From positions 81,814,948 to 81,878,947 of the forward strand of contig OY754464.1 in the NCBI GenBank assembly GCA_963575645.1: a DNA stretch of 64,000 nucleotides, in the 5' to 3' direction. This document shows, one piece after another, positions 5,985-61,432 of this stretch. The notes under the pieces were generated by a model. It had not been told where the DNA came from and made no database searches. It worked only from the letters and a program-made list of their open reading frames with translations. This DNA comes from Xanthostigma xanthostigma (taxonomy: Eukaryota; Arthropoda; Insecta; Raphidioptera; Raphidiidae). Position numbers and translations under genes: made by a program. The stretch's first letter is position 1. Every line of letters begins with the position of its first letter.

Positions 5985-6024
5985 CATTAACGTTTCGATC
6001 CGGATTTGGATCTTCTTCAGAACG
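5985..6024 (-). ncRNA. Hammerhead-ribozyme-like motif
   Basis: Read on the minus strand: CTGAAGA (6014-6020), one extra A, helix II GATCC/GGATC (6008-6012 with 5997-6001, 6-nt loop), then GAAA (5993-5996) and CGTT. Helix I is CGTT/AATG (6021-6024 with 5985-5988) with one G-T wobble. The ACGT after GAA is self-complementary, so helix III would need a dimer. The extra base before helix II departs from the usual core, although an extra nucleotide there is documented in a natural viroid hammerhead. Confidence 0.6.
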
Positions 6025-6031
6025 GATCTAA

Positions 6032-6565
6032 AATTGGTTGTCTGTAAAGTCGGTTTACGGACGATAGTTTTACGTGATAACGTATTCCGTAATACATAAC
6101 CTAAACCTCCCAAAATTTGGTTTCAATCCGCTTATCCTTGGTGTCGGAATGATAAGAAATGTCAAAAGTGACGTTTGCAACTGTCAAAGTATTATGTTCT
6201 AATAATAATTAGTTATTCCAATAGTTAACTTAGAAGGCGTTGCATTTCACAAAATACTAATGTCAAAAAATTGAATTAAACATTAGAAATGCAGCCGTTT
6301 TCATGTTAAGACAAGACATACGTTATATTCTAATTTCCATGTACGGCAAACAAAGACGACCGACCGCGTCGCGCCATGCATTAGACAACATTGCATTTAT
6401 ACAGCTATTTTTCTATATAAATTTGTATAAAAAAACTGTTTAGGCAAATTCTGTTATACGAAATCTATGTAAAATGTTCTCCTCTTTCGTTTAAGACTGG
6501 TTTCAAACCGATCTTATTTAAATTGAGCGAGAAATTAGCAAAAAGCACGCACAGGGTCAGGCGGA
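6032..6565 (+). mobile_element. R1 repeat, copy a (inserted in palindrome)
   Basis: Begins AATTGGTTGTCTG like the other R1 copies, follows the family through GATAACGTATTCCG, then has a diverged interior and ends near GCACGCACAGGGTCAGGCG, a segment also present in the copy at 32374-32578. It interrupts the left arm of the palindrome. Confidence 0.6.
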
Positions 6566-6878
6566 ACGTTCGCGTTAATTTCTAATTCGCTTTATATAAA
6601 ATTCTTTCAAAATAATTAATTAGTATCAAAATATTGAAAAAATTAATTATTTTGAAAGAATTTTATATAAAGCGAATTAGAAATTAAATATTAATTATTT
6701 TTTATATTTCTTAGATCCGTTCTGAAGAAGATCCAAATTTCGTATTGTCTGAAAAATTGGTCGATAATTTTATTTATTAAAAAAGTCTGTAATAATATAA
6801 TGCCGATAATGGACATTTAAATGTATTATCATTATTATTAATTGATAAAAAAATTAAAAAAAAAAAACTATGACATAC

Positions 6879-6992
6879 TTTTCCATCAAACTTGCCCCAC
6901 ATGTAATCTCTGTATCGTACTACTTGCGTTGGGTTATACCATTGCTTATTGCTTTCCACACACTTCCGTCTATCTTTTGGAACCTTCGCCAT
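6879..6992 (-). CDS. Candidate 5' coding exon of the minus-strand gene
   Basis: ATG at 6990-6992 on the minus strand opens 38 codons ending at a donor-like AAA|GTATGT (6878), in phase 0. The peptide starts MAKVPKDRRKCVESNK and ends RYRDYMWGKFDGK, basic and hydrophilic, with no signal peptide. An acceptor-like TTAG lies four bases upstream of the ATG region, so it could follow a non-coding exon. Phase 0 allows joining to the terminal exon at 3439; whether the piece at 5293-5367 is included is unclear. Function not recognised. Confidence 0.5.
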
Positions 6993-7292
6993 TGCCTAAG
7001 TACCTGATAATCTCTTAATTTGCAATTAATACCTATCAAAATTTGTAACTTAAAAAATTTGTTAAAAATCTGTAATTTTTTTAAATACTTTGACGTTTTA
7101 AAACAAATACTCCTAGGAAACAAGCTGCGGTAACCTTAGGTGCAAAATTTTCTGTAAACTCAACGTTAACTAACATATTATTCCAAATGGTATAAATCCC
7201 AAAACAGCTAAACTTGTGTAAAAAATGGCTAGAATTGTGCAGTATCATTATAATATTTTGTTATGTATATTTTAATAATTTGTGATTTACCG
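6993..7292. other. A+T-rich spacer
   Basis: No supported gene, RNA or repeat seen. It could hold the promoter or an upstream exon of the minus-strand gene, but no specific signal was recognised. Confidence 0.3.
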
Positions 7293-7547
7293 TTTTTTTC
7301 GGACTATAAGACACACCTTTTTACATAGGAAAATGGACTCAAAATTTGGGTGCGTTTTATGGTCCGAAGGTAACATTTTAGAGATGATTTATTAAAAAAA
7401 CAAATTAACGTAAATTAAAATATTTTTTTCAATAAATCGTCTCTAAATTTATATTAACAATAAATAAAAATTATGATCGGAAACATTAATATAGGTATAT
7501 TATTTTTCTAAAAATCTTATAATTTTGAGGTGCGTCTTTAGAGTTAA
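7293..7547. repeat. MITE-like element with GACTATAAGACACACC-type ends
   Basis: The left end (CGGACTATAAGACACACCT) and right end (GGTGCGTCTTTAGAG) are roughly inverted, and the interior is A+T-rich with inverted symmetry around the ATTTTTTTCAATAAATCGTC segment. Only one copy is in the window, so the boundaries are approximate. Confidence 0.45.
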
Positions 7548-7550
7548 AAA

Positions 7551-7747
7551 AATTGGTTGTCTGTAAAGTCGGTTTACGGACGATAGTTTTACGTGATAAC
7601 GTATTCCGCTCGAATATCATATTTAATAATACATAACGTAAATTTTAGTAGCTTGTCAGGCGGAACGTGACACATTTCGGAACGTGACACTTTTTCGTGC
7701 ATGCAGCCAGTGTTTCATCAATTTATAAGACGTTATCACGTCAAAAA
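7551..7747 (+). mobile_element. R1 repeat, copy b (short form)
   Basis: Has both family ends (AATTGGTTGTCTG at the left, CGTTATCACGTCAAAAA at the right) but lacks most of the interior: about 200 bp instead of about 650. Closest in layout to the copy at 32374-32578. Confidence 0.8.
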
Positions 7748-7797
7748 TACGGTATTTAAACTATAAGTAACTGTTTGATTTTATGTGTCATATACCA

Positions 7798-8212
7798 AGC
7801 GGGGTGGCGTAGTTGTGAGAGCACTAGACTCGCATTCGAATCCCGGCAAGGGCAGATATGGCTGGGACTTTTTCCTTCTGCCTCTCGCCGAGAAACGGTA
7901 ATTCCTGTACCGGCCCTCTTGTTGAGGTTATCCATGGTTTCCCTCAATAATTTCAGGAAAAACATGTCGAGATGGTTCCTTATTCAAGGCCATGGCCGAT
8001 TACCTGTCAAACTCCTATGCTCAAAATTTGTCAACCTTATCCTAATGTCCTAAAATTCCTTCATTCGCCCATGGCTATTAATTAAGTGGAAGTTGAAAAA
8101 ATTTAGAAAATAACGAAGTGTAACAGATGGAAAATAGTAATGGTGCGAATGGCGTTTGTTATGACATAAAGTCGAGAAACGGACGTTAAACGCATTATGT
8201 ATTATTATTTGA
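7798..8212 (+). mobile_element. tRNA-derived SINE, copy 1
   Basis: Starts AGCGGGGTGGCGTAGTTGTG with a Pol III A-box-like segment, followed by TTCGAATCCCGGC (B box). Compared with the copies at 11076-11506 and 43661-44090 it lacks 16 bp between two TTCG motifs just before the B box. The body ends AAACGGACGTTAAACGCATT and a short TTATTA tail. No clear target duplication. Confidence 0.75.
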
Positions 8213-8378
8213 TAATAAATAGACGTTTTTTGACATTTTAAATTTTCAGACGTTTTTAATATTCTAAAATTTTAAAATTATTTTGTGAAAAAAAAATAAA
8301 AAACCATGGATTTTCCAAAAATAAATAACAGTGACTGGTTACAGAGAAAGATGAATGTGCAATAATCTACAATTTTGA

Positions 8379-8415
8379 GCCCTGAGGAAGTCTTAAGTTA
8401 AGACGAAACGTTGGC
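8379..8415 (+). ncRNA. Hammerhead-ribozyme-like motif
   Basis: CTGAGGA (8382-8388), one extra A, helix II GTCTTAA/TTAAGAC (8390-8396 with 8398-8404), GAAA (8405-8408), CGTT, and helix I GCC/GGC (8379-8381 with 8413-8415). Helix II is long and perfect but has a one-base nominal loop, so the innermost pairs would open. Surroundings are A+T-rich and not clearly palindromic. Confidence 0.55.
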
Positions 8416-8930
8416 AATAAAAATAAAAATATTGTACAGAATAAAGTTCCATTTCCAGTTATTATTTATTATCAAATTCACATAAGAGGAACGATAACAA
8501 CATAAAATATGAATTATTATTATTTTATTTGCAATAGGTATATGTAGTTTGAAGGTATGTAAAACAATAATTTGAAAGGCTCTCGTATATTTGATAGGCG
8601 ATATCGATTAAAGAATGACGTCGAGTTCTTCAATGTGGTATAAAATCTGCTCTTTTCCTGTCTCTCGTCGTATATACAATAAACCGTGACACGTCACTAG
8701 AAAATGACAGGTCATACACAAACGCAAAAGCTCGTATACGTATAACAGAATGTGAACAGATGTTGTCATATAGATTATAGAAGACCACAGTTTTGTTATA
8801 GGTATAAAGCCTATATGCACAGAAAGTAAATCTCTCTTCAGCACAACGTATTGTTGCTGCTATACGCTCATTTTATACACGTTTACACATAATATACCCT
8901 CCTTGAAAGAAAAATTTGCTGATTGGTATT
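8416..8930. other. Spacer, nothing recognised
   Basis: No supported gene or shared repeat. The short open frames here look like ordinary chance frames. Confidence 0.3.
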
Positions 8931-9575: not shown

Positions 9576-9686
9576 TTTTTTATATCTTCATACAGATTTT
9601 GGAGTTTACTCCTTAAGATTTTGAGTTATAAGGCCCGGTACGGGAAGTAGTAAAATCATATATTTAATTATTTACTATATAAATCA

Positions 9687-11060: not shown

Positions 11061-11075
11061 ATTTGTAATATTAAT

Positions 11076-11506
11076 AATAATAATAATGCGTTTAACATCC
11101 GTTTCTCGACTTTATATATAACAGACGCCATTCGCACCATTACTATTTTCCATCTATCAATACTTTCCGTTATTTTCTACATTTTTTCAACTTCAACTGA
11201 TTGATAGCAATGGGCGAATGAAGGAATTTTAAGACATGAGGATAAGGTTGGCAAGTTTTGAGCATAGGAGTTTGACAGGTAGTCGGCCATGGCCTTGAAT
11301 AAGGAACAATCTCGATATTCACCTGGAATTATTGAGGGAAACCGTAGAAAACCTCAACAAGATGGCCGGTATAAGAATTACCGTTTCTCGGCGAGAGGCA
11401 GCAGGAAAAAGTTCCAGCTACATCTGCCCTCGCCGGGATTCGAATCCGGCACCTCTCGAATGCGAGTCTAATGCTCTCACCTCTACGCCACCCAGCTCGC
11501 TGTCTC
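11076..11506 (-). mobile_element. tRNA-derived SINE, copy 2
   Basis: Minus-strand copy with an intact B box (GGATTCGAATCCCGGC) and an A-box-like GGTGGCGTAGAGGTGAGAGC head. It ends at the left in a TTATTA tail. A 14-bp target duplication flanks it: TTTGTAATATTAAT (11062-11075) and TTTGTAATCTTAAT (11507-11520), one mismatch. The duplication length indicates target-primed retrotransposition. Confidence 0.85.
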
Positions 11507-11542
11507 TTTGTAATCTTAATAGGTCGATATAAAATAATTTAT

Positions 11543-12281: not shown

Positions 12282-12349
12282 ATTTTCCACTTTTTAGTTC
12301 GATTTATTGTCAAAAATTTGCCGAAAAATAACATTTTTTTTTATTTCGG

Positions 12350-12435: not shown

Positions 12436-12519
12436 GCTCTTACAGTAGTGGCATAACATACTAACAGTAATAAACCACTTGCTGTAGTCTAAAGGAAGGT
12501 TACAAACGAACATACATAC

Positions 12520-13725: not shown

Positions 13726-14266
13726 TGTAACAACTTAGTTGTTACTTGGTTAATTTAATAAAAATTAAATTATTTCTTTATTCGCCGCCTCTGTCCTACA
13801 TTATAATTATTCTTTATTTATTACCAAATCATCATTATATAACTTGTCATTGTGTCGACTTTATCTCTACCAAATTCACTTGAAAAATGTTTAAAATATT
13901 GAATTCTAAATTATTAAATAGTCAGTCAAATTTGATACATTATTCGCTAAACTAGCAATCCTAATTGTGGCGAGATTATTAATCCGACATTTACCACAGT
14001 TATATTGGATCCTGCTACGCAAGTGAGCGCTAATTATTTCTCGAACTAAATCTAATACCACCAGCTAAAGCCGACACAAGACAATAATTTCTGTGCTACC
14101 AGTTGCTTTATTATTTATTATTTTTTTACAATTAAAGTTTGAACTTATATTGAGTTGTGCTTCATTTTTTTTAATATCATCGATGTTTAACAATTGATCG
14201 TCTTACCCTAACAATCTTCCACAACCTTCCACCGTCGATATCTAATCTGTGCGAAGCTTCGTCACA
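13726..14266 (+). repeat. 5' LTR
   Basis: Starts TGTAACAACTT and ends TTCGTCACA. By eye it is identical to the 3' LTR over 541 bp. A TATATAA at about 13835 is a possible core promoter element for the genomic transcript. Confidence 0.95.
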
Positions 14267-14270
14267 GAAT

Positions 14271-14284
14271 TGGTAAGCAGAGCG
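14271..14284 (+). promoter_or_regulatory. Primer-binding site (putative)
   Basis: TGGTAAGCAGAGCG begins four bases past the LTR. TGG pairs with a tRNA CCA end. The rest resembles the initiator-Met complement except for one extra A; the actual primer tRNA is uncertain. Confidence 0.55.
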
Positions 14285-14323
14285 TAGTTATTGATCAAGT
14301 TCTACATCGAATACATCACAAAT

Positions 14324-15367
14324 ATGAAGCAAACACGAAGTCAGAATAAGAAGAAGGAAGAAACGCAACCAATTTCACCACCATTTTTGGATGCGAGCGA
14401 TCAAGTTGATCAAGCCAATAACGTTCCTACAGCTTCAACGACAATGACAACTACAGCCGATCAACTATTTAATCTTCTGTCTTATACAACCAGTCAAACT
14501 TCGCAACTACCGACTCAACAAGACCTCGATCCTGCAAATATTGGAGCTACTGCCTTATCATTTTCGTCACCTCAGACAACAGTGGCAATTACGTATACGA
14601 CGTCTGTATGTGGTACATCCGTATCTTCAGTCCGACCGGAACCGACTCATAATTCAGACCAACCATCCCCGTTAGCTAAAGCGGCGGCAACGCAAATGCG
14701 CATGACAGCGACGCTTATGGATCAGGTTGAGATGTTAAACAGAAATACTAACCGTCTTGTGTTAGCGCAAAATGATTGTGATTTTAAAATCGACGCCAAA
14801 GAAATCACATCTTCGATATCACACTGTTCAGGCGACAATTCACGAAAATTAATTGATTTTGTACAGGAAGTTCAATCTGTTATTGATTTACAGTTGGCTT
14901 CCGAGAACACACTGTTAAAATCTTTATTAAATAAAGTCCACGCCGAATTAAGAATATGGTGGGCACATGCTGTTCGACGTTTCGACGACTGGAGTTCACT
15001 AAAACCGGCACTGTTACGTGAATTTATTTCACCAGTGTCGCACAATCAACTAGTGAATGATCTAGTTCGCCGAACACAACGACCCGAAGAATCGTTTAGA
15101 AGCTTTATCAGCGATATTCTGTCCAAATTTAAAGCTCTCGATATGAATTGCTCCAAACAGGAATTAATTCTTCAAATCTGGACGAATTTAAACTACGATA
15201 CTCTCATTGGTTTGAAAGATATGCCAATGCCGCAAACGATAGACGAACTTCATGTTGTTGCTCGACGCTTAGAAGACTACCATCATCGTCTCGAATCAGC
15301 GAAAGCTCGTGAAGAATCTTCTAAATCGGCTTCTGCACCTGTGAAAAGAAATTTTCCAAAAAACTAA
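14324..15367 (+). CDS. gag: Gag polyprotein
   Basis: 347 codons from the ATG at 14324 (MKQTRSQNKKKEE), the first ATG after the primer-binding site. The N-terminal third is Ser/Thr/Gln-rich and low in structure. The region from about residue 150 to 315 has the pattern of the retrotransposon Gag capsid-like domain (LIDFVQEVQSVIDL, W-WA, LREFISPVS, RPEESFRSFISDIL). The C-terminus is basic. No CCHC or CHCC zinc knuckle occurs, either here or in the start of the pol frame. The frame ends in TAA directly after a slippery heptamer. Role: assembles the virus-like particle in the cytoplasm. The zero-frame product is Gag alone. Confidence 0.9.
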   Translation: MKQTRSQNKKKEETQPISPPFLDASDQVDQANNVPTASTTMTTTADQLFNLLSYTTSQTSQLPTQQDLDPANIGATALSFSSPQTTVAITYTTSVCGTSVSSVRPEPTHNSDQPSPLAKAAATQMRMTATLMDQVEMLNRNTNRLVLAQNDCDFKIDAKEITSSISHCSGDNSRKLIDFVQEVQSVIDLQLASENTLLKSLLNKVHAELRIWWAHAVRRFDDWSSLKPALLREFISPVSHNQLVNDLVRRTQRPEESFRSFISDILSKFKALDMNCSKQELILQIWTNLNYDTLIGLKDMPMPQTIDELHVVARRLEDYHHRLESAKAREESSKSASAPVKRNFPKN

Positions 15368-18300
15368 ATCACTCCAGAAGGAATCGCATACTTTGTTCCA
15401 TTCATAAACCATTCCTTCTGAAGAAAAATAGTTCCAATAAACCATACTTACCTTTCATTAAACTCTCCATTGACAATAAATCCTTTCAATGCATCGTTGA
15501 TACTGGTGCTTCAGCCAATTTTCTCCATCCAAAAATCGTCGACCAATTAAAAACCTGCAAGAAAATAAAAATTACCAAATTTAAATCTCAAGTCAAGATA
15601 GCTGATGGACGTCTTGTACCAATTCGGAAGTCAGCGAGTTGCATAATCAAGATCGAAAACTTCACTTGGAGACTTACCTTCCTGATTGTTCCAGACCTAT
15701 CATTTCCGATGATTCTTGGAAACCATAGCCTCCGACACATGCGAGCTATTCTCGATTTCAATGCGAATTCTTTAGAATTTGCCATCGATGGAACAAAAGT
15801 TTCTTTGGGATACATGCCGATTGATGACAAAGCTATCTCGCTTCTTCTTGAACAGCCGTACAATCTTTCTGACGCTCAAGAAAATGGTATTAAACGACTA
15901 ATAAGCGATTATAACGACGTTTTGACCGATGATATTGGTCACACTGATCGTTACACCTTAAATATTCGCTTAAAGGATAAGAAGCCGGTTCGAAAAACAC
16001 CGTACACCTTAACACCACCAAAAGCTTTAGTGATGCAAGAGCATGTCAACAAATTAATCGACAAAGGCATCGTTGAAAAATGTATAAGTCCATACGCATC
16101 TCCAGCATTTTTAATAACAAAAAGAGACGGTTCTCCAAGACTGTGTGTCGACTACAGGCAGCTAAACAAAAACATTGTGTTCGATGCCTTTCCGTCACCT
16201 AAATTAGAAGATGTGTTTATGACACTGCATGGATCTTCGGTGTTTTCATCTATCGATCTCACTAGCGCTTTTTACCAAATACCATTGACTGAGAAATCGA
16301 AAAATATAACTGCATTTGTGACTCCACAAGGCCAATACCGTTTTACACACGTACCGTTTGGATTAGCAGTGTCTCCGAGTGCACTGAATCGCATCATCAC
16401 CGACATTTTTGGAGATTTACGCTTCAAGTTTGTCCTGCCATATTTTGATGATCTTCTGGTGTACAGCGCGAACATCAATGACCATCTTGAACATCTCAGA
16501 ATTGTTCTTGATCGATTACGTCAAGAAGGTCTTACCGCTAATCCAATTAAATCCGTCTTCTGCATGGCTCGTCTTCGTTTCCTGGGGAATATTATCAGCG
16601 GCGATGGTATCCAGGTAGATCCTGAAAAGGTCCAGGTTATCCAGAAACTCGAACCGCCAAAGAATATGAAACAGCTTCGTTCCTTCCTCGGCATGACGTC
16701 ATTCTTCGCCAAGTTCATTCCTGAATATGCCCGTATTGCAGCTCCATTGAATCGTCTGAAACAAAAGAATGTAAAATTTGACATACAAGATGAACAACTG
16801 TCAGCATTTAATATTTTAAAAGAAAAACTTACCACAGCTCCGGTTTTAAAATATCCCGACTTCAACCGACAGTTCATATTGCGAACTGACGCATCTGACG
16901 TGGCTGTTGGAGCTGTATTATTGCAAGATTCTGCTGACGGACTTCACCCGATTCAATACGCTAGCCGCAAATTACTTCCAGCGGAGCAGCGGTATACTAC
17001 TTACGAAAAGGAGGCTCTCGGTATGATTTTTGGCTTGAGAAAGTTCGAAGACTATCTACTTGGGCGAAAATTTACACTTCAAGTCGACAATGGCGCGCTC
17101 TCCTGGCTTGCCAGCCATAAACGACAACTCGGTCGAGTCGGCCGTTGGGTACTTGAAGTTTCTAAATTCGAGTTCGACATTATCCACATTGGTGGAAAAG
17201 TGAACACCGTCGCGGACGCCTTATCTCGCCTATATGACCAGCATGATGACGACCTACAGCAAGAGACGATTCCAGTTGCCTTAAATGTATTGACGAATAT
17301 ACCACAATCTTTTATCAGCATCAAAAATTATCAAATAACCGATCCGTTCTGTGAAGGCATCCGCCAGCGACTTCAAGCAGGAGAGGATGTGAAAGACTTC
17401 AAGATGAGATCCGGCGTATTGATGAAACGTGTTGGTAAAAATAAATTGTGGAGAATTTATGTTCCTGTGTCAATACGCAACATGATTATTTACTACTACC
17501 ATGACACTAGTATGAGTTCGCATCCTGGTATGACCAAATCTTATAGGGACATTGCCCGTAGATTTTGGTGGAGCGGCTTATACCAAGACGTACGAACATA
17601 TGTCAGATCGTGCGAGCTGTGCCAACGCTGCAAGGCCTCCAACGAACATTCAGGTGCGCCTATGCATGCAGAACTTCCGACGGCTGTGTGGCAAAGGGTC
17701 TATATAGACTATATTGGCCCAATGAACATCACTACTAGAAGAAACTGCTACGCACTTGTATTAGTTGACGCCTTTTCCAAGTGGGTTGAGATAATGCCTA
17801 CTGTTCGCTCAACAACTGACTCTACACTGAGACGGCTTGAAGATTTGTGGTGCCGTTATGGACCTCCTCAGATGTTGGTAAGTGACAATGCCAAATGTTT
17901 CACTAGTCAATCCTTCCGAGAGCATTGCCTACGCTTCGGTATAAAAAGAATTACCACTACGCCTTACCATCCGGCCGCCAACGCATCTGAGCGTGTGAAC
18001 AGGAACATCGTCGCCGGCATGACAATTCTCTTGAAGCAGTGCTCAGATCGACACAAGCATTGGGATGAACAGCTGAAGTGGCTATGCTATTCTTTTAACA
18101 ACACCGTGCACGAGGCCACCGGAACATCGCCAGCATCACTGTTTTTAGGTCGCCAGCTAAATCGACCATTAGACAATCTCTGGGATGTAGCCAAGCTGGT
18201 ATCTCCAGACCGCGTTCCAGACGAACAAGAAGTCGCCCGTGTTCTTGACGCCAGCATGCTTCGACGAAAGAGATATTATGATCGTCATCGGCCGGCTGCA

Positions 18301-18513
18301 CACCAATTTCAACCTGGTGAGCTTGTTCTACAGCGTGTGTTCGTTTCTCCAACTCCTGGAGATCGCAGCAAGAAATTCGTTCCCAAGTGGTCGACCCCCA
18401 GGAGAATACTTAGATTTACCACACCTGTATCAGTCGAACTCCATGACGATCTCACCAACAGGACTTATCGTACACATGTTCAGCACCTGCGGAAATTCCA
18501 CACCAGACGTTGA
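15325..18513 (+). CDS. pol: Pol: protease, reverse transcriptase, RNase H, integrase
   Basis: This frame is open from 15325 and overlaps gag by 43 bp; about 1050 codons are read after slippage near 15364. Protease: VDTGASANF (15499 on) and the ILGNHSL motif (15712 on). RT: SIDLTSAFYQIPL, FGLAVSPSALNR, catalytic YFDD (16441 on; Tyr-Phe-Asp-Asp rather than the commoner YIDD/YVDD). RNase H: RTDASD, YEKEALG, QVDNGALSWL, VADALSRL. Integrase: H-x6-H and CELC zinc domain, then IDYIGP, SDNAKCF and ANASERVNR as D, D, E with 34 residues between the second D and E. The C-terminal GPY/F-like segment is WSTPRRILRF; there is no chromodomain. No stop or frameshift. Copies RNA into cDNA and integrates it. 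Confidence 0.95.
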   Translation: MGFCTCEKKFSKKLNHSRRNRILCSIHKPFLLKKNSSNKPYLPFIKLSIDNKSFQCIVDTGASANFLHPKIVDQLKTCKKIKITKFKSQVKIADGRLVPIRKSASCIIKIENFTWRLTFLIVPDLSFPMILGNHSLRHMRAILDFNANSLEFAIDGTKVSLGYMPIDDKAISLLLEQPYNLSDAQENGIKRLISDYNDVLTDDIGHTDRYTLNIRLKDKKPVRKTPYTLTPPKALVMQEHVNKLIDKGIVEKCISPYASPAFLITKRDGSPRLCVDYRQLNKNIVFDAFPSPKLEDVFMTLHGSSVFSSIDLTSAFYQIPLTEKSKNITAFVTPQGQYRFTHVPFGLAVSPSALNRIITDIFGDLRFKFVLPYFDDLLVYSANINDHLEHLRIVLDRLRQEGLTANPIKSVFCMARLRFLGNIISGDGIQVDPEKVQVIQKLEPPKNMKQLRSFLGMTSFFAKFIPEYARIAAPLNRLKQKNVKFDIQDEQLSAFNILKEKLTTAPVLKYPDFNRQFILRTDASDVAVGAVLLQDSADGLHPIQYASRKLLPAEQRYTTYEKEALGMIFGLRKFEDYLLGRKFTLQVDNGALSWLASHKRQLGRVGRWVLEVSKFEFDIIHIGGKVNTVADALSRLYDQHDDDLQQETIPVALNVLTNIPQSFISIKNYQITDPFCEGIRQRLQAGEDVKDFKMRSGVLMKRVGKNKLWRIYVPVSIRNMIIYYYHDTSMSSHPGMTKSYRDIARRFWWSGLYQDVRTYVRSCELCQRCKASNEHSGAPMHAELPTAVWQRVYIDYIGPMNITTRRNCYALVLVDAFSKWVEIMPTVRSTTDSTLRRLEDLWCRYGPPQMLVSDNAKCFTSQSFREHCLRFGIKRITTTPYHPAANASERVNRNIVAGMTILLKQCSDRHKHWDEQLKWLCYSFNNTVHEATGTSPASLFLGRQLNRPLDNLWDVAKLVSPDRVPDEQEVARVLDASMLRRKRYYDRHRPAAHQFQPGELVLQRVFVSPTPGDRSKKFVPKWSTPRRILRFTTPVSVELHDDLTNRTYRTHVQHLRKFHTRR
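15358..15420 (+). promoter_or_regulatory. -1 ribosomal frameshift signal
   Basis: A AAA AAC (15358-15364) is a canonical X XXY YYZ heptamer in the gag frame and is followed at once by the gag TAA. After a 10-nt spacer, a perfect 10-bp stem forms between 15375-15384 (CAGAAGGAAT) and 15411-15420 (ATTCCTTCTG) with a 26-nt loop. The pol frame is -1 to gag and is open from 15325, so slippage here yields Gag-Pol. Three features agree: heptamer phase, frame relation and stem. Confidence 0.85.
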
Positions 18514-18650
18514 CGACGCTCATCTACCTACATTGATATTTATTTTTATATCTATTCTTAACTTATTATTTACAATTATTTTTTTATTTCAGTAGTTGTG
18601 CAAATTCACGATTATTGTTTGTTTGTTTTTTTTTTTTGGTCCTTTTTAAG

Positions 18651-18663
18651 TAGCAGGGGTGGC
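18651..18663 (+). promoter_or_regulatory. Polypurine tract (putative)
   Basis: AGCAGGGGTGGC lies immediately before the 3' LTR, the expected place for plus-strand priming. It is short and interrupted by T and C. Confidence 0.5.
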
Positions 18664-19204
18664 TGTAACAACTTAGTTGTTACTTGGTTAATTTAATAAA
18701 AATTAAATTATTTCTTTATTCGCCGCCTCTGTCCTACATTATAATTATTCTTTATTTATTACCAAATCATCATTATATAACTTGTCATTGTGTCGACTTT
18801 ATCTCTACCAAATTCACTTGAAAAATGTTTAAAATATTGAATTCTAAATTATTAAATAGTCAGTCAAATTTGATACATTATTCGCTAAACTAGCAATCCT
18901 AATTGTGGCGAGATTATTAATCCGACATTTACCACAGTTATATTGGATCCTGCTACGCAAGTGAGCGCTAATTATTTCTCGAACTAAATCTAATACCACC
19001 AGCTAAAGCCGACACAAGACAATAATTTCTGTGCTACCAGTTGCTTTATTATTTATTATTTTTTTACAATTAAAGTTTGAACTTATATTGAGTTGTGCTT
19101 CATTTTTTTTAATATCATCGATGTTTAACAATTGATCGTCTTACCCTAACAATCTTCCACAACCTTCCACCGTCGATATCTAATCTGTGCGAAGCTTCGT
19201 CACA
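18664..19204 (+). repeat. 3' LTR
   Basis: 541 bp, by eye identical to the 5' LTR, same TGT...ACA ends, followed by the GCAA duplication (19205-19208). Confidence 0.95.
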
Positions 19205-19208
19205 GCAA

Positions 19209-24601: not shown

Positions 24602-24960
24602 GCAGGTAGCGGGCGAAGTGTCCTTCTAGGCTGTTCACAGATAAGTGTGTCGACGACTCTTGTTCTTCCTTCCTTTATGCTCAGTGCGTTAGAATTATCT
24701 GCTCTTCTGTGATTGGTGAAGGAAGAGCAGTAGTCGTTGACACACTGTGAGTAGCTTGGAAGGACACTTCGCCCGCTACCGCATCGCCTTTGATAATGTC
24801 TACCGCAGTTGTAGACGAAACGTCAGGTAGAGGACCACGGCCTACAAGCCCGGAAGCCAAGAAGATTTGGAACAACACCGACCGTGAAAGCCTACACACT
24901 TGGACAAAAAAATAAAACAGAAATATATACAAAACTTCCAAAGTTACAAGATCCCCTATA
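24602..24960. repeat. Palindromic hammerhead-type repeat, copy D
   Basis: Inverted arms 24602-24675 and 24715-24785 share GTAGCGGGCGAAGTGTCCTT. The right side continues into an unpaired tail containing a hammerhead-like core at 24787-24827 and then an A-rich end near 24905. The left arm is truncated before the matching core. Confidence 0.65.
24787..24827 (+). ncRNA. Hammerhead-ribozyme-like motif (core altered)
   Basis: TTGATAA (24790-24796) stands where CTGATGA is expected: two changes. The rest fits: one extra T, helix II GTCTAC/GTAGAC (24798-24803 with 24811-24816), GAAA (24817-24820), CGTC, and helix I CCT/AGG (24787-24789 with 24825-24827). The two core changes should abolish cleavage. 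Confidence 0.5.
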
Positions 24961-26880: not shown

Positions 26881-28257
26881 TTATTCGTCACGAGCACAAT
26901 AAATCGCATAGACATTGTCAACATAGATACTAAAATTTACATTAAAAGATTTGATAAACAAAAACACTAATTACAGACACTGATTACATAATATACATTT
27001 TTATAACCAGAAGGTTATTTTAAAAAATCATTTATATGATAAAATGTTTCTTTAATTAACATTTTTTTTAAGTCTGTTTTAAATTTTTTTATAGTTGTAC
27101 TTTGTTTAATGCCGTTTGGTAAATTATTGTAAATTACAATTGGGGAATTTGTGATACCCTTTATAGTTAAATTAAGTCGGTTCCGAGGAACTATTAAATT
27201 TGTGTTGTGACGGGTGTCATGAAAATGTGTCGAACTAACTGGTGAGTATTTATAAAGATTTTGTCTAATATAAATCGCTGCATTAAGTATGTAGATACAA
27301 GGTACGGTCAAAAGGCCGTTTTCTTTAAAGTAGGAACGACACGATGTCATTGGACTTAGTTTAAACATATATCTAATTATGGATTTTTGTTTAATGAAGA
27401 CATTGAGAGAACTGGGTGAGTTTCCCCAACATAAAATACCATATTTTATCAAAGGGTACGCGTAAGCATAATATATAGTTTTCAGTAAATCTATATTATG
27501 ACAAAAAGAGTTGAAACATTTTATCATATAAATGGTTTTTGATAATCTTTTACACAAGTCGTTTGTATGTTCATTCCAACTTAGGGTTGAATCTATGGTG
27601 ACCCCAAGCAATTTAAAGCTTGTAACACAATCAAGAAAATTATTATTTAATGCGAGAATGAAATCAGCCGGATTTTTGTTCTGAATAGTGTGGAAAAACA
27701 TCATTTTAGTTTTAGTGTCGTTTAGCTTTAAACCGTTATTGATACACCAATTATTTATGTCACTGACGGATTTATTCATTTTTTGATTAAGAATTTCAAC
27801 CGATTTTCCTGCACATAGTAAACTCGTGTCGTCTGCGTAAATTACACACTTATCACAGCTCACATGGTCTGGGCAGTCGTTTATGTAGATTAAAAAAAGA
27901 ACCGGGCCTAAAACAGAGCCTTGTGGTACTCCATTTGTTAATCTGCCTTCATCAGATAGAATATTTTTGATAGACACTTGTTGGGTTCTTTGGTCTAAAT
28001 AAGATTTTATCCATTGATTTGCTAATCCTCTAATCCCTATTCGCTCAAGTTTCTGTAATAATAAATCGTGTTTAACCGTATCAAACGCTTTACTCATATC
28101 GCAAAAAGTAGCGCAAACTTTATTGTTATTATCAAGATTGTCTAAAACAAATGTTAAAAAATCATAGATAGTTGTTTCTGTTGATTTATTATTACAAAAA
28201 CCGTGTTGCGAGAGAGACATCAAATTATTTTTGTTAAGAAAGTTCCATAACCTTGCT
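26838..28257 (-). mobile_element. 5'-truncated CR1-superclade LINE
   Basis: The minus-strand 3' end is an AAT/TTA microsatellite (26838-26876). The 3' UTR is about 140 bp. The recognisable protein homology starts at about 28257 and nothing upstream belongs to it. No target duplication is visible, as is usual for CR1-type elements. Confidence 0.85.
27015..28223 (-). CDS. LINE reverse transcriptase, C-terminal two thirds
   Basis: 402 codons from the first ATG; homology continues about 11 codons upstream of it, so that ATG is not the original start. Motifs in order: SQHGFCNNKST, CDMSKAFDTVKHDLLL, NGVPQGSVLGPVLFLIYIND, catalytic YADDTSLL, LNDTKTKMMFF, LLGVTIDSTLSWNEH. The C-terminal region (HDTRHNTNL, IYNNLPNGIK, FKTDLKKMLI, YHINDFLK) is typical of CR1/Daphne/Crack-like elements. 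The endonuclease domain and RT N-terminus are missing, so it cannot move alone. The frame has no stops, suggesting a fairly recent insertion. One departure: SQHGFC where a basic residue is common after F. Confidence 0.9.
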   Translation of the reverse strand: MMSLSQHGFCNNKSTETTIYDFLTFVLDNLDNNNKVCATFCDMSKAFDTVKHDLLLQKLERIGIRGLANQWIKSYLDQRTQQVSIKNILSDEGRLTNGVPQGSVLGPVLFLIYINDCPDHVSCDKCVIYADDTSLLCAGKSVEILNQKMNKSVSDINNWCINNGLKLNDTKTKMMFFHTIQNKNPADFILALNNNFLDCVTSFKLLGVTIDSTLSWNEHTNDLCKRLSKTIYMIKCFNSFCHNIDLLKTIYYAYAYPLIKYGILCWGNSPSSLNVFIKQKSIIRYMFKLSPMTSCRSYFKENGLLTVPCIYILNAAIYIRQNLYKYSPVSSTHFHDTRHNTNLIVPRNRLNLTIKGITNSPIVIYNNLPNGIKQSTTIKKFKTDLKKMLIKETFYHINDFLK

Positions 28258-29526: not shown

Positions 29527-31480
29527 TTATATAGCCCAGTGCATTTAGGAATTGACCCAAAAATTTCAGATACATTTTTTCTTTTGTTGCTCATTCGAAA
29601 GGGTCTTCGATGGAGACCTTAACCCTGAATTTGCGCATTCCTCAAATTGCCCCGTCCGCCGCCATCTTGGATTTTGTTTTTTTTCTTCAATTGCTCATAT
29701 CTCGCGTTCTAATAATCCCACAGCAATCATTCTAGGATCGTTGGACTCGTTAGGATTTACTCTTTAATTGAATGTCTATCAAGTAAAACTCTCCAATGTA
29801 CTGGAAAAAAGTTATTAGCGTCCAAAGTTTAAGTTCTTTTCCAAAAGTTCTTGCGCCCGGTTTTTCCGCGCGCATCTCTTTTCAGTGCATCTGACACCCC
29901 CACTGACAGTTTACTATTTAAAGTAGACTCAATTTCCAGTATTTAAAAAAAAAATTCATCCCAATCGGTTGATCCCTCGCCCACCAATCCACGATCAAAG
30001 TTGCGCTTTTCATTTCGTGCTATTTTGAAGCCTCTAATACTCGCACTTCGCGCTGCATTTCTCGCTTTTGTAACAAATATAATGCAAATTAATTAAGACC
30101 AACGACATTTTTGTTAAATCTGTGCTAAGAACACGCGGTTTACATTAATTTTTTACTTAAATTTATAACTCAGATCAATAGTAGAGTGTGTGAGTCGGAT
30201 AACCATGTAAATATTTTGAGCCGAAACGGGATTACCTCCCCCCCATTTTCGAGGTTGCGAAACACGGTGGTGATATTAAAATTTCAGTTTAGGGTTGAGC
30301 AACCCTCCAAAACGGACAAAAACCACCCTCAAACGGAGTTAAACGCGCATTACGTTATTCCCTTTCCGAAAGAAATGTTTTACTCTTGTTTTTGAGGATG
30401 CTGAGCATGGTGCTGGTGTTGAAAATTGCCGTCGATTCTCACCAACCCCTTCACCTCTGATCCCAAAAACGGGTGATTTTTTTTTCATATCACCAGCATA
30501 ATTGGGTTATCTCCCCGTTTCAGAGGATTCTGAGATTTGGCCGGCGAAGGGGTTGGTGAAAGTCGAATGCAATTTTCAACAACTCCACCGTGCTCATCAT
30601 TCTCAAAAATAGGTAAAAAACATTTTTTCGGAAAGGGAATAACGTAATGCGCGTTTAACTCCGTTCGGGGGTGGTTTTTGGCCGTTTTGGGAAGTTGCTC
30701 AACCCCAAAGAGAAATTTTAATATTACCACCATGTTCCGCATCCTCGAAAAGGGGAGGGGGGTAATCTCGTTCCGGCTCAAAATATTTACATGTTCGTCC
30801 GACTCACACACACCACTATTGATCTGAGTTATAAATTTAAGTAAAAATTTATGTAAAAAACGTTTTCTTAGCACAGATTTAACGAATATGTCATTGGTCT
30901 TAATTAATTTGCATTATATTAGTTACAAAAGCGAGAAATGCAGCGCGAAGCGCATGTATTAGAGGCTTCAAAATAGCACAAAATGAATAGCGCAACTTTG
31001 AGCGTAGATTGGTGGGCGAGGGATCAACCGATCGGGATGAATTTTTTTTTAAAATACTGGAAATTGAGTCTACTTTAAATAGTAAATTGTCAGTGGGGGT
31101 GTCAGATGCACTGGAAAGAGATGCGCGCGGAAAAACCCGGCGCAAGAACTTTTGGAAAAGAACTTAAACTTTGGACGCTAATAACTTTTTTCCAGTAGAT
31201 TGGAGAGTTTTACTTGACAGACATTCAATTAAAGAGTAAATCATGACAAGTCCAACGACCCCAGAATGATTGCTGTGCGATTATTAGAACGCGAGATATG
31301 AGCAATTGAAGAAAAAAAACAATCCAAGATGGCGGTGGACGGGGCAATTTGGAGAATGCGCAAATTCAGGGTTAAGGTCTCCATCGAAGACCCTTGCGAA
31401 TGAGCAACAAAAGAAAAAATGTATCTGAAATTTTTGGGTCACACCTATAAAATATTTCTAAATGCACTGGGCTATATATC
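29527..31480. mobile_element. Long palindromic (foldback-type) element
   Basis: Two arms of about 920 bp, 29527-30450 and about 30540-31480, are inverted copies from the outer ATAGCCCAGTGCATTTAG to the AACCCCTTC segments next to the centre. Divergence between arms is modest, with small indels. No intact frame. Its hairpin-forming layout resembles foldback elements. A subregion (TTTTCGAGG...AACACGGTGG) is related to 25905-26120. Confidence 0.85.
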
Positions 31481-37641: not shown

Positions 37642-37680
37642 GGCCCTGATGATGAAAATATATTTTTCGAAACGTTGGCC
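37642..37680 (+). ncRNA. Hammerhead-ribozyme-like motif
   Basis: CTGATGA (37646-37652), one extra T, helix II GAAAA/TTTTC (37654-37658 with 37664-37668), GAAA (37669-37672), CGTT, helix I GGCC/GGCC (37642-37645 with 37677-37680). The only copy with the most common core base T at the variable position. Flanks are not part of a long palindrome, apart from the small one at 37470-37538. Confidence 0.6.
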
Positions 37681-43646: not shown

Positions 43647-43660
43647 TTGACAGAGAATAA

Positions 43661-44090
43661 CCTAGCGGGGTGGCGTAGCGGTGAGAGCACTAGACTCGCA
43701 TTCGGGAGGTGCCGGGTTCGAATCCCGGCGGAGGCAGATGTGGCTGGGAGTTTTTCCCACTGCCTCTCGCCGAGAAACGGTAATTCCTGTACCGGCCATC
43801 TTGTTGAGGTTTTCCACGATTTCCCTCAACAATTCCAGATAAATATCGAGATGGCTCCTTATTCAAGGCCATGGCCGATTATTTGTCAAACTCCTATGCT
43901 CAAAATTTGCCTACCTTATTCTAATTTTCTAAAAATTCCTTAATTCCCCCGTTAGGTACTATTAAATAAGTTAAAGTTTAAAAATTGTAAAAAATAGCGG
44001 GAAGGTGGTAGAAAAAAATAGTAATGGTGCGAATGGCGTCTGTTATGACATAAAGTCGAGAAACGGACGTTAAATGCATTATTATTATTA
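43661..44090 (+). mobile_element. tRNA-derived SINE, copy 3 (best copy)
   Basis: 430 bp: head AGCGGGGTGGCGTAGCGGTG, B box GGTTCGAATCCCGG, body, TTATTA tail. A 14-bp duplication, TTGACAGAGAATAA (43647-43660) and TTGACTGAGAATAA (44091-44104), one mismatch. The intact A and B boxes could drive Pol III transcription. Confidence 0.9.
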
Positions 44091-44104
44091 TTGACTGAGA
44101 ATAA

Positions 44105-44625
44105 AAAATAAGTTCAAAAACTAAAACTCGACTACTGAAAAGTATAAAATAAGAAAATATTCTAATCTGGGGATAGCCACTACCCTAACAAAACATTTAC
44201 ATTTTAACAGTAGTAAGCGATCATAAGCTCTAGGGCAAAGTGCATCACGCTATACATCTGGAGGGGCTTCATATATATGAGATGGCATACGACCACGGCT
44301 ATCCTCAGATGAGAATATTTTCTTGTTTCATACTTTTCAGTAGTCGGGTTTTAGTTTTTGAACGTATTTTTTATTTAAATTCTTTTTTTTTAACTTATTT
44401 TTTATTTGTTTCAATTTGCTCCCCTCTGGGACCAAAATTCAAAAATAAATGTAGCCTATGTTACCCGGGCCATAATAACGAATCGATTGACACTTTATTT
44501 ATCAAATTCGGATAAATAGTTTAGGCGCTACGCTGGAACGTCCGTAAATACATACATACATAGACTGTTAAACTCATAACTCTTCCTTTTGGCTTCGCCG
44601 CAGTCGGGCAAAAAGACGAACGGAC
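44105..44625 (+). repeat. Repeat J, copy 1
   Basis: An inverted pair (about 44111-44175 against 44295-44362) encloses the TGCATCACGCTATACATCTGG segment, followed by TGTAGCCTATGTTACCCGGG and ending TTTTGGCTTCGCCGCAGTCG. Copies at 52535-53010 and 62274-62770. Confidence 0.7.
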
Positions 44626-50675: not shown

Positions 50676-50857
50676 AATTATATATTACTCACGCGTGTTT
50701 TTCAACATTTAGAAGTAGGTTATACGTAGTAATTATGCTACCAAAATATTCTTTATATTGTTGTTTGAAAGATAAACAACCAATTGTTATAAATTGTTCA
50801 ATAAATAAAATTATCGACCAATTTTTCAGACAATATATTAACAAAATATAATTAATA

Positions 50858-50897
50858 CATTAACGTTTCGATCCCGATTTGAATCTTCTTCAGAATG
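50858..50897 (-). ncRNA. Hammerhead-ribozyme-like motif
   Basis: Minus strand: CTGAAGA (50887-50893), extra A, helix II GATTC/GGATC (50881-50885 with 50870-50874; one T-G wobble), GAAA, CGTT, helix I CATT/AATG (50894-50897 with 50858-50861). Confidence 0.6.
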
Positions 50898-51087
50898 GAT
50901 CTAAAAATATAAAAAATAATTAATACTTATTTAGTTTCTATTTATTTGTAACGAAATTCGTTAAAAATAAATAGAAACTAAATAAGTATTAATTATTTTT
51001 TATATATTTAGATCCATTCTGAAGAAGATCCAAATCGGGATCGATAGAAACTAAATAAGTATTAATTATTTTTTATATTTTTAGATC

Positions 51088-51127
51088 CATTCTGAAGAAA
51101 ATCCAAATCGGGATTGAAACGTTAATG
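51088..51127 (+). ncRNA. Hammerhead-ribozyme-like motif
   Basis: CTGAAGA (51092-51098), extra A, helix II AATCC/GGATT (51100-51104 with 51111-51115), GAAA (51116-51119), CGTT, helix I CATT/AATG. Relative to 5985-6024 the first helix II pair changed from G-C to A-T on both sides. Confidence 0.65.
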
Positions 51128-51534
51128 TATTAATTATATTTTGTTAATATATTGTCTGAAAAATTGGTCGATATATTTATTTATTGAAGAGTTCTAATCA
51201 GACGTTAATCAAAGATTTGTTATAAATTGTAATAAATTCTTTACCGTAAATTAAAAAATTTGCTATTTGAGCAACTAATATGATTTGTCTTTCAAATAAC
51301 CACATTTAAGTTTATCAACCGCTAGTAAATTCGTATTTTGTTTAATCAGCATTTTAGGCTAGTTAAATTATTTGATTTAATTCTGGAAAAAACGCTGAAA
51401 ATTCGCCATAAATGGCTTCCTCTTATCATTGCGAAAGGGTGAACCGAAAACCTTCTTTTCTTCTTTCCTCAATTCTTCTCCTTCACAACAACATCGTCAA
51501 AATAAGAACTTGTTCTATTGAACTTAGTGATGGG

Positions 51535-58373: not shown

Positions 58374-58915
58374 GCCAGTCCCGGTTTCACCCGGGTGCAA
58401 AACTAAGATTGATTAATACATAAATCTCCCTCTCCCTATTTCTCTCTCTGAAAATATTATAGTAGCCTTCCCATCTATTGTTTCTCTAAAGATTTGGCCA
58501 GCGTAAGCGTAAACAGATTTTTTTACAAAACACCGTCATTTTGTACAAAATATTTACAAATTATACACACAAACCTTCCTTGTTTATCGCTCTTTGACTT
58601 TCTATTGGTGAAAACCGTTTCAACATCCATTGTGTGGTGTAGAAGAAGTAAGCGGAGAAACAGACAGAGGCAAACAGCGCCTTTTTTTATTATACTATGT
58701 AATGATGACAAAACACCGTCATAATTTTAGCCATATTTTCTAAAAAATATTTACAATATAATATATACATAAATCTTCCTCGTTTATCGCTCTTTGACTT
58801 TCTATTAGTGGAAATCGTTCCAAAATCCGTTGCGTGATTTAGAAGAAGAAAGCGGAGAAACAGACAGAGGCAAACAGCGACTTTGTCTTCTACTATGTAG
58901 TGATGATACTTCGTT
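58374..58915 (-). repeat. Helitron-like repeat H4, tandem copy
   Basis: CTAG end at the left (58374) next to CGGTTTCACCCGGGTGC. Two inner units with GAGGCAAACAGCG and AAAACACCGTCAT. Inverse of 41599-42077. Confidence 0.6.
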
Positions 58916-59273
58916 ATCCATGTTTGCTCTTCATAGAGTTTTACAAATACTATAAAATAAAATTAAACACAGAAGTCACGTATTTAAAAAAATATATATT
59001 TTTTAAATCAGCACATTTCGCGTTTCTATGTGCCATTGTTTACGCGATGAAGAGCTGTTATGATGTTGTTTCGACATTGAAGTATTTATTTCATTCTTTC
59101 ACAAGATATGCCAAGAATAAACACAGTCTGCTAACTTTACACTTTTTAGATTTTATTGTATTGAAACAGTGTAAACAAACTGTAAGTTTTTATTAATCAT
59201 GATCACTCAATTGTATATTATAGAAAAGAAACGAAACGGTTGATTTATGAGTCAAATTTGTTTATTGTAGGAC

Positions 59274-59313
59274 GACTACGTTTCGACACCTGTTTTGGTG
59301 TCTTCCTCAGGTC
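59274..59313 (-). ncRNA. Hammerhead-ribozyme-like motif
   Basis: Minus strand: CTGAGGA (59304-59310), extra A, helix II GACACC/GGTGTC (59297-59302 with 59285-59290), GAAA (59281-59284), CGTA, helix I GAC/GTC. Mirror image of 59463-59502. Confidence 0.65.
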
Positions 59314-59462
59314 TTTAATTAATTGACATTAATTGACCATAACATCACAAAATCTAATTCATACTTTACTGAAATTTAATACTATTGCGATCGTTGTTAA
59401 ATTTCAGTAAAGTATGAATTAGATTTTGTGATGTTATGGTCAATTAATGTCAATTAATTAAA

Positions 59463-59502
59463 GACCTGAGGAAGACACCAAAACAGGTGTCGAAACGTAG
59501 TC
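59463..59502 (+). ncRNA. Hammerhead-ribozyme-like motif
   Basis: CTGAGGA (59466-59472), extra A, helix II GACACC/GGTGTC (59474-59479 with 59486-59491), GAAA (59492-59495), CGTA, helix I GAC/GTC (59463-59465 with 59500-59502). Predicted cleavage after A59499. Confidence 0.65.
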
Positions 59503-59631
59503 GTCCTACAATAAACAAATTTGACTCATAAATCAACCGTTTCGTTTCTTTTCTGTAAGTTTTTATATTTATTGTTTTCAAAACGTTGAGTCTTACCACT
59601 CTAATATATTATGTTCAGTTAGATTTTAGGT

Positions 59632-60815
59632 TTCCGTACCTCAAACGGAACGCAGGAACCAGTATAGGATCATTTCGTTGTCCATCTGTCTGTCTGTCGA
59701 GATCATGTTTCTCAGAAACGCGTGGAGATATCAAGTTGTAATTAAGTTTGGAAACTATGGGCATTCGAAGATTTTCTGAAAACTGAACGCAAACAACTTC
59801 TAAACCAAAAGACGTTTATTTGTGCGTGTTTTTTTCTATAAGCATCATGATTAGGTATGTCAAAGTTCCGATAGATTTCGGTTTTCGTCAAAAATCGCAA
59901 TTTTTTAAAGGGGTATGCCTTGAAAAAATGCAAAAATCGAATTCTTTGATATAGGTAGGTACTTTAGAAATTGAGAATGCTTATAGAAAAAAAGCGCTGA
60001 ATTCAATGAGCGTAAGCAAACGTCTGTATCTCTTTTAGTTTGGAAACTACGGTCATTCGAAGGTTTTGTATGATTTTCTGAAAATTATAAACGCGAGTAG
60101 CTTCTAAACCAAAAGACATACAGACGTTTGTTTGTGCTCATTGGGTTCAGCGTACTTTTTCCTATAAGATGATGATTTGGTAAAAGTTTCGACAGATTTC
60201 GATTTTCGTCAAAATTCCTAGTTTTTAAAGGGGTATGCCTTGAAAAAATTGCAAAAATCGAATTCTTTAATACACTTTAGAAATTGAGAATGCTTATAGA
60301 AAAAAAAGCGCTGAATTCAACGAGCGTAAGCAAACGTCTGTATCTCTTTTAGTTTGGAAACTACGGCCCTTCGAAGGTTTTATATGATTTTCTAAAAACT
60401 ATAAACGCAAACAACTTCTGAATCAAAAGACATACAGACGTTTGTCTATGCTCATTGGATACAGCGTGTTTTTTTTTCTATAAGCATGATGATTTGGCAA
60501 AAGTTCCGACAGATTTCGGTTTTCGTCAAAAATCGCATTTTTTTAAAGGGGTATCCCTTGAAAAAATTGCAAAAATCGAATTCTTCAATATACTTTTGAA
60601 ATTGAGAATTGTTATAGAAAAAATTACGCTGAATTCAATGAGCGTAAGCAAACGTCTGTATCTCTTTTAGTTTGGAAACTACGGCCATTCGAAAGTTTTA
60701 TATGATTGTCTAAAAACTATAAACGCAAACATCTTCTAAACCAAAATATATATAGACGTTTATCTTTGCTCATTGGATACAGCGTGTTTTTTCTATAAGC
60801 ATGATGATTTGGCAA
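59632..60815 (+). repeat. Tandem array, unit about 315 bp, with GGTTCCGTACCTC head
   Basis: AGTTTGGAAACTA recurs at about 59744, 60037, 60351 and 60669, giving spacings near 293, 314 and 318. Each unit contains ACATACAGACGTTT, CGACAGATTTC and GGGGTATGCCTTG. The array begins after a fragment of the GGTTCCGTACCTC repeat (59632-59705). Short frames here are repeat shadows. Confidence 0.85.
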
Positions 60816-61260
60816 AATAGAAGATAATCCCATGTGCAAGAATGCTCATGTCTGCCGGTTTTTTCTTTGGTAGAATAGGTGGCAGATTTATTTGCTCTGA
60901 TTTCATCAACTTATAGCTTGACATTTTGCATGCTAATAGAATGGGAGGCTTACCTTTTCCCAAAAAAAAATCTGCCGGAAGTCAAGCTTTCTGTACTCCA
61001 TATTTGGCGCATGCGTTAAAAACACTGCCCATTAAAGAGCACAAATCTTGATGTTTTACGCATGTTTTCGAACATTTTTAAACGTATTTACTTTATTTTC
61101 GAGTTTTTATCTCATTTCCGCGATTTTTCGGTATTTTTTCGACAAAATTTGTGTTCAATATTGATTGCTCCAATTAATATATGATTATGTTTTTTAACAA
61201 AATAAAAAAAGACACCTTGATATTGTGATACGATAAAACTATACGGGATACAAAGCTAAA
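60816..61260. other. Spacer
   Basis: Nothing recognised. Confidence 0.3.
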
Positions 61261-61432
61261 ATATTAAAACAATTTTTATTCACTAGAACATTATTAATTA
61301 TTGGTCAACGTTTCTGCAATATTTCTTGTCTTCTTCAGGACCTTAAAAAAGAAGGCAAGAAATATTGCCAAAACGTTGACCAATAAGTAATGTTCTAGTG
61401 AATAAAAATTGTTTTAATATTATGGTATTTCC
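61261..61432. repeat. Palindromic hammerhead-type repeat, copy F
   Basis: Arms of about 80 bp from AATATTAAAACAATTTTTAT inward, meeting near 61345. The left arm has an intact core (61303-61342, minus); the right arm has lost CTGA and has AAAA for GAAA but keeps helix II. Confidence 0.75.
61303..61342 (-). ncRNA. Hammerhead-ribozyme-like motif
   Basis: Minus strand: CTGAAGA (61332-61338), helix II weak (CAA/TTG only; the right arm keeps GGCAA/TTGCC), GAAA (61311-61314), CGTT, helix I GGTC/GACC (61339-61342 with 61303-61306). Confidence 0.5.

Follow-up and report, generated by a model that had tools for sequence, protein, structure and literature searches.

Minimal hammerhead motifs and inverted insertions of probable Penelope-like retroelements in Xanthostigma xanthostigma

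Hammerhead motifs in the window and in the host genome

We analyzed a stretch of 64,000 nucleotides from Xanthostigma xanthostigma (contig OY754464.1, positions 81,814,948 to 81,878,947 of the forward strand; hereafter the window), in which a preliminary description had listed ten hammerhead-like motifs, eight of them intact and two altered. The sequence reads as described at 10/10 places. Seven of the eight copies taken as intact passed a strict scan, in which we required CTGANGA, a hairpin of at least 3 pairs, GAAACGTH and at least 3 helix I pairs. Three of these belong to one main family and lie at 5985-6024 on the minus strand (left arm of element E, predicted cleavage 3' of base 5989), at 50858-50897 on the minus strand (left arm of element C) and at 51088-51127 on the plus strand (right arm of element C). 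The remaining four are the family F copy at 8379-8415 (plus), the family G copy at 37642-37680 (plus) and the two family A copies at 59274-59313 (minus, left arm) and 59463-59502 (plus, right arm, predicted cleavage 3' of base 59499). The eighth, the family B copy at 61303-61342 (minus), lacks the first two pairs of helix II and failed the scan. Judging from their sequence, we conclude that the motifs are very probably minimal type I hammerheads of Penelope-like retroelements (PLEs), located in the pseudo-long terminal repeat (pLTR) between the end of one open reading frame (ORF) and the start of the next. They are a very abundant new set of members within a known class, the PLE hammerheads, and the preliminary interpretation was right in kind.

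The strict scan found its 7 motifs in the window versus 0 in 200 simulated 64-kb windows (Markov-1). With a looser score, 8 window motifs reached at least 22, and none scored above 20 in 60 simulated windows; two more window matches scored 20, which corresponds to the chance level. We agree with the altered status given to the last two places. The family H copy at 24787-24827 (plus) carries T for C3 and A for G8 in its core, with both helices intact, and the main-family copy of element D at 126-157 (minus) is decayed, with broken helices (1/3 pairs in helix I and 2/5 in helix II). Furthermore, two truncated copies had been missing from the list: a tandem copy in the right arm of element C (51015-51044, plus) and one in the right arm of element E (6718-6738, plus). 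The type I core CUGANGA ... GAAA ... UH with helices I and II is present in the intact copies and not in the decayed ones. The ten places are not independent. The motifs at 126 (minus), 5985 (minus), 50858 (minus) and 51088 (plus) share one flank cluster, those at 59274 (minus) and 59463 (plus) are the two arms of one palindrome, and the number of independent families is six.

We then searched the host assembly (623,323,696 bases in 28 contigs) with the pattern CTGANGA-N5-30-GAAACGT and obtained 21,307 matches (10,578 forward and 10,729 reverse), compared to 239 (113 + 126) with the reversed pattern. For the genome sample, we took the first 100 matches together with their flanks; all of them lie in the initial 4.74 Mb of contig C1. 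Both helices had at least 3 consecutive pairs in 53/100 of them. By way of a chance control, this was the case for 2/121 of the core-plus-tail matches listed in viral contigs, where the pattern was slightly different. One of these two, at about 3010-3041 (minus) of viral contig L003, has both helices (TTA/TAA and GGGC/GCCC) and may be due to chance or be a real motif. Two family-specific scans yielded no match. The base after GAAACGT (H17) had been stated never to be G. This holds for the ten window motifs, but G occurred once among the 100 sampled matches, next to T in 73, C in 22 and A in 4.

The preliminary description had also claimed that the helices covary between copies. With each of the six window families on its own strands, 18/18 helix I and 28/30 helix II positions were paired, as compared to 56/90 and 72/150 when strands were mixed across families. 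Among the 720 possible strand assignments, the true one alone reached the joint total, and one other equaled its helix I total. For a broader test, we took 108 motifs with an insert of 11-24 bases and GAAACGTH or GAAATGTH (9 from the window and 99 from loci L129-L205) and clustered them on the flanks outside helix I. This gave 18 clusters with one representative each, a stricter design than a version that merged 103/108 motifs. In the 18 representatives, 45/54 helix I and 62/72 helix II positions were paired, versus shuffled means of 25.5 and 38.4, and 0/20,000 shuffles attained either observed count. Covariation was thus upheld by both the permutation and the shuffling test, but the ten window copies contribute to it only as six independent families. 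The family G motif of the window falls into a flank cluster of 20 motifs together with L132, L137, L139, L140 and L145.

As had been noted, every family carries one extra base before helix II. Indeed, helix II fitted best with exactly one such base in all six window families, whereas the type I consensus has no residue between A9 and helix II. In the genome sample, 76/100 copies were well formed, i.e., had at least 4 consecutive helix II pairs and were best read with exactly one extra base. This base was A in 49, T in 26 and G in 1. Across the 18 clusters, it was A in 9, T in 7, G in one and C in one; the G and C cases are single motifs with 1 and 0 pairs in helix I and 0 and 2 pairs in helix II, respectively, and look like chance matches. 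An extra base does not exclude hammerhead identity, since a natural active viroid hammerhead carries such a residue. In the plus-strand hammerhead of chrysanthemum chlorotic mottle viroid, a replicon unrelated to PLEs, one extra A is described between A9 and helix II, as here; this natural A lowers the rate moderately, U raises it, and C and G are harmful (PMC3705267). The restriction to A or T in our copies fits this reported pattern of tolerance.

Inverted arms, tails and adjacent Penelope frames

The inverted, palindromic arrangement of the motifs is the main structural fact, and the preliminary description had left it out. Element C (50784-51230) is a palindromic PLE insertion with a short tail on its left arm and a long tail on its right arm, bounded by a perfect 14-bp target-site duplication (TSD), TTGTTATAAATTGT, at 50784-50797 and 51217-51230. 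In its right arm, positions 51003-51127 hold a partial direct duplication of about 73 bp, whose junction lies within the hammerhead after GATCGA and which looks like a template jump. Element E (5879-6796) has inverted arms around a nested interior and a perfect 12-bp TSD, GTCTGTAATAAT, at 5879-5890 and 6785-6796. The 60 bp directly beside its hammerhead (6030-6089) have six other matches in the window (five at 100% and one at 98%); they are ends of another repeat family and probably represent a nested insertion. The TSDs of C and E exceeded all 300 random placements of windows of the same size. Element D (53-508) is again palindromic with a short-tailed left and a long-tailed right arm (self-inverted BLAST match at 53-468, tail match to 508).

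The window also holds palindrome A (59218-59558), which is 97% self-inverted and contains both outward-pointing family A hammerheads, and palindrome B (61260-61421) with the family B hammerhead, in which the arm opposite 61303 (minus) has kept the full hairpin and lost the 5' half of the core. The family H motif adjoins a 176-bp palindrome with 70% identity (24605-24780). No TSD above chance was found for element D, palindrome A, palindrome B or the family H palindrome. No palindrome was found at the family F hammerhead (8379-8415). A perfect 15-nt inverted repeat surrounds it (8207-8221 and 8463-8477), which may be due to chance or represent short insertion arms.

The same arrangement was seen in the genome sample. 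Neighboring motifs no more than 300 bp apart pointed outward (minus-then-plus) in 17/17 cases. Up to 1200 bp, 20/22 were outward inverted and 2 direct, and extending the limit to 2000 bp added one direct and one inward pair. All 20 outward pairs that we fetched were palindromes or inverted-arm elements. A TSD score of at least 12 was reached by 10/20 pairs versus 0/380 mismatched combinations, in which the left flank of one element was joined to the right flank of another; at a score of at least 10, the figures were 13/20 and 9/380. The length of the TSDs varied from about 11 to 19 bp.

Arms of the main family end on their 3' side in either a short tail or one that extends about 33 nt further. 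Measured from the predicted cut, the short marker mostly ends after 64-66 nt and the long marker after 97-99 nt. Exactly one long tail was present in 12/12 paired elements of this family; in two of them, the short marker was found in one arm only. When outward arm pairs with decayed partners were included (85/92 arm rows used), 23/27 were long/short, 4 short/short and none long/long, whereas 48% mixed pairs would be expected if the tails were independent. These inverted pairs with mixed tails are the part most worth following.

The link to Penelope came from frames next to the motifs. At both L204 and L149, a main-family motif is preceded on its own strand by a frame that contains the start of a GIY-YIG domain and ends 188 or 192 nt, respectively, upstream of it; the Pfam E values are 6.6e-4 and 4.3e-4, with scores slightly under the curated cut-off. 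At L141, a matching C-terminal endonuclease piece lies between the two inverted arms, and at L166 a motif, an endonuclease fragment and a second motif follow in direct tandem order. A GIY-YIG search of the genome listed at least 37 matches (150/521 candidates scored). Locus L205 was fetched because this search listed its 804-codon frame, which contains RVT_1 (E 3.1e-11) and GIY-YIG (E 1.2e-5, over the cut-off). Another motif family brackets this frame, and each of three repeats carries the motif CTGAAGA-T-GAGAGC...GCTCTC-GAAATGTA. Hence, the motifs adjacent to ORFs at L204, L149, L141, L166 and L205 place the hammerheads in PLE pLTRs. Among the hallmarks of PLEs, a reverse transcriptase (RT) and GIY-YIG in one frame beside the motif were found at L205, partial endonuclease frames at L149, L204, L141 and L166, and direct and inverted pLTRs, a tail and TSDs of variable length were all observed. 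A Pfam search of ten chosen window frames found no PLE frame within the window.

The window also contains other repeats. A Ty3/gypsy-type long terminal repeat (LTR) retrotransposon at 13726-19205 has 542-bp LTRs that are 100% identical (13726-14267 and 18664-19205), with gag and pol frames at 14288-15364 and 15325-18510, and looks very young. A 413-codon reverse transcriptase fragment at 27018-28256 (minus; RVT_1 E 1.1e-30) is probably derived from a non-LTR element. A 2-kb palindrome at 29528-31478, with arms 88% identical, carries no hammerhead. Finally, a repeat family at 7794-8219, 11073-11497 and 43660-44105, two copies of which have weak tRNA matches at one end, is probably a short interspersed element (SINE).

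Dimer formation and routes to inverted insertions

In the sampled copies, the joining sequence in the place of helix III is ACGU, which is self-complementary, as fixed by our search pattern. Because A15.1-C-G-U16.1 is so short, there is no room for a helix III hairpin. Two further forms were found. The joining sequence of L205 is AUGU, self-complementary with wobbles. A genome search with GAAAGCT gave 290 matches versus 184 for the reversed pattern, and from its first 100 matches we chose 20 helical-looking places (L206-L225) with 22 motifs. By eye, 16/22 have a helix I like TTTAAT/ATTAAA, AGCUGCU or nearly so, and one extra T before helix II. AGCUGCU pairs with itself around a central U-U mismatch, which amounts to a further helix III design, and the PLE-like AGCUGCU motifs of L206 and L213 also form outward pairs. 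Both the AUGU and the AGCUGCU forms favor pairing of two molecules. The motifs are thus best read as minimal hammerheads with a self-complementary ACGU instead of a helix III hairpin, which would act as dimers. PLE hammerhead variants reportedly cleave RNA as dimers, as the title of the study by Lunse et al. from 2017 has it.

Starting from this, we propose that ACGU would pair between two RNAs, or between two copies of the pLTR within a single tandem transcript, to form helix III, and that each predicted ribozyme would cut after the H of GUH. Such cuts would divide tandem read-through transcripts into RNAs of unit length in which the ORF lies downstream. The paired copies would mostly be short 5'-truncated insertions whose reverse transcription was primed at both target-DNA ends. 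Copying would start within the RNA, downstream of the ribozyme, at two fixed sites separated by about 33 nt, with each target end using one of them. The expected traces of such double-ended priming would be inverted arms with ribozymes that point outward, tails of unequal length (one short, one long) and TSDs of about 11-19 bp. We infer a double-ended, internal start because the protein of the PLE of the anole Anolis carolinensis is described as extending both target strands and starting internally (PMC11167929). Both tails are located 3' of the predicted cut, which means that the RNA copied would not have been cut at that ribozyme; all copies considered were selected for an intact motif.

Several observations weigh against this interpretation. 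Concerning the motifs themselves, the Rfam search suggested in the preliminary description matched no hammerhead model, even at E 10, in the window or in ten further loci, with no positive control included. All Rfam matches were sub-threshold, mostly to microRNA models. In the genome sample, helix I had at most one consecutive pair in 32/100 matches; about 18/100 (read by eye) represent one subfamily with a single consecutive helix I pair, which element D of the window resembles. The representative of the largest cluster in the 18-cluster test likewise has a broken helix I. The intermolecular helix III put forward in the preliminary description agrees with joining sequences that are self-complementary and too short for a hairpin, but ViennaRNA cofolding returned the expected dimer for 0/8 sequences (among the monomers, the predicted fold agreed with the drawn one for two, F and the right arm of C). 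In addition, one L151 motif with both helices has ACAU, which is not self-complementary; this may be a decayed or chance copy. Regarding the insertions, 10/20 pairs have no TSD at score 12, four of the 27 arm pairs are short/short, with one inward pair within 1 kb counted, and an L167 arm extending 145 nt upstream carries a long tail. Frames with GIY-YIG, or with RT plus GIY-YIG, next to the motif link the main window family and one family found elsewhere in the genome directly to Penelope. For the remaining five window families (A, B, F, G and H), the link is one that we infer, the search for frames having covered ten window frames (Pfam) and the endonuclease peptide of one family (tblastn). 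Finally, the anole PLE hammerhead is reported not to have cleaved without its protein (PMC11167929).

Among the alternatives, self-priming is a possibility to be taken seriously, although we hold it to be doubtful. In this model, proposed for PLEs of Adineta vaga (PMC3846280), the first cDNA folds back and is copied, giving inverted arms. In agreement with it, the turning point of element C is ACGAAATTCGT, to which a near-palindrome in the L204 pLTR, ACGAATTTCGT, corresponds; moreover, both arms of element D have in common variants not seen in C and E. The tails argue in the other direction. The inverted arm of L141 carries the long tail, about 33 nt of which are missing from its 3' arm, and therefore one arm is not a plain copy of the other. 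Furthermore, the loci that reach into an ORF (L141, L149, L166 and L204) have a short tail at that end in 4/4 cases. At near-palindromes that occur naturally, like that of element C, self-priming may still play a part. The L204 sequence also shows that the center of element C is ordinary pLTR sequence, which rules out, for this element, that the palindrome center is unrelated captured sequence.

In an extension of double-ended priming that we regard as unlikely, the dimeric hammerhead would be part of the insertion machine itself, with the ACGU-paired RNAs presenting two templates to both cut target ends. The paired segment would precede the priming sites by a few dozen nucleotides, and one target end would be extended from the near site, the other from the far one.

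It is improbable that the motifs are non-functional look-alikes, retained only because PLE ends are copied together. Decayed copies are indeed common, many copies of the D-type subfamily have no helix I, and the anole ribozyme is described as dispensable for insertion in vitro (PMC11167929). However, both helices have been preserved in independent families despite numerous differences on either side, and 75/76 well-formed copies have A or T as the extra base.

We consider it very improbable that the insertions are DNA transposons of the miniature inverted-repeat type (MITEs), moved by cut-and-paste and carrying the motif by chance within their terminal inverted repeats. In its favor, palindromic sequence makes up 11.3% of the window, with a hammerhead missing from most of the 29 palindromes listed, and the arms of L135 and L141 are 100% identical. 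However, the variable TSD length already weakens this reading, the two ends differ in tail in 12/12 main-family paired elements, and a PLE endonuclease fragment lies between the L141 arms. No more credible are animal non-LTR retrozymes, non-coding tandem repeats with type I hammerheads that spread by small RNA circles and are described as alike in size, low GC and type I layout (PMC7229834), since, among the first 100 genome matches, the neighbors within 1200 bp are outward inverted in 20/22 cases and direct in 2, some copies bear an ORF and the motifs have no closable helix III.

Relation to known elements

The motifs share the type I order and the absence of a helix III of their own with published minimal PLE hammerheads, including those of Lunse, Weinberg and Breaker (2017). 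Compared by description rather than by sequence, published PLE hammerheads likewise lie in PLE pLTRs, occur as thousands of dispersed copies in animal genomes and have been proposed to act as dimers. PAc, a Poseidon PLE of Anolis carolinensis, is described as having a hammerhead at the pLTR-ORF junction, as here, with copies that end (the tail) where reverse transcription starts and with both target strands cut and extended (PMC11167929). Unlike PAc, the elements studied here include many inverted pairs consisting of pLTRs only, with tails ending at two fixed sites, as far as can be told from the DNA.

The Penelope families of Adineta vaga resemble them in their inverted pLTRs, a tail on one of the two, TSDs and palindromes at the junction (PMC3846280). 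In that account, a 31-bp tail is optionally present on one inverted pLTR and the TSDs are 8-10 bp, somewhat shorter than the approximately 11-19 bp found here. Unlike the elements here, the Adineta vaga PLEs are presented in a text in which the word hammerhead has 0 occurrences.

The origin of inverted pLTRs is described as unsettled (PMC3846280), and so is the role of PLE hammerheads in the literature. About 21,000 pattern matches belonging to many families, frequently arranged in inverted pairs that have TSDs, give enough events in this genome to test self-priming against double-ended priming. The same abundance allows mapping of the base changes that the ribozyme tolerates, the extra A or U included. 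If the dimeric hammerhead did take part in insertion, the inverted copies with mixed tails would be the footprint of a ribozyme acting as a template clasp and not as a cutter.

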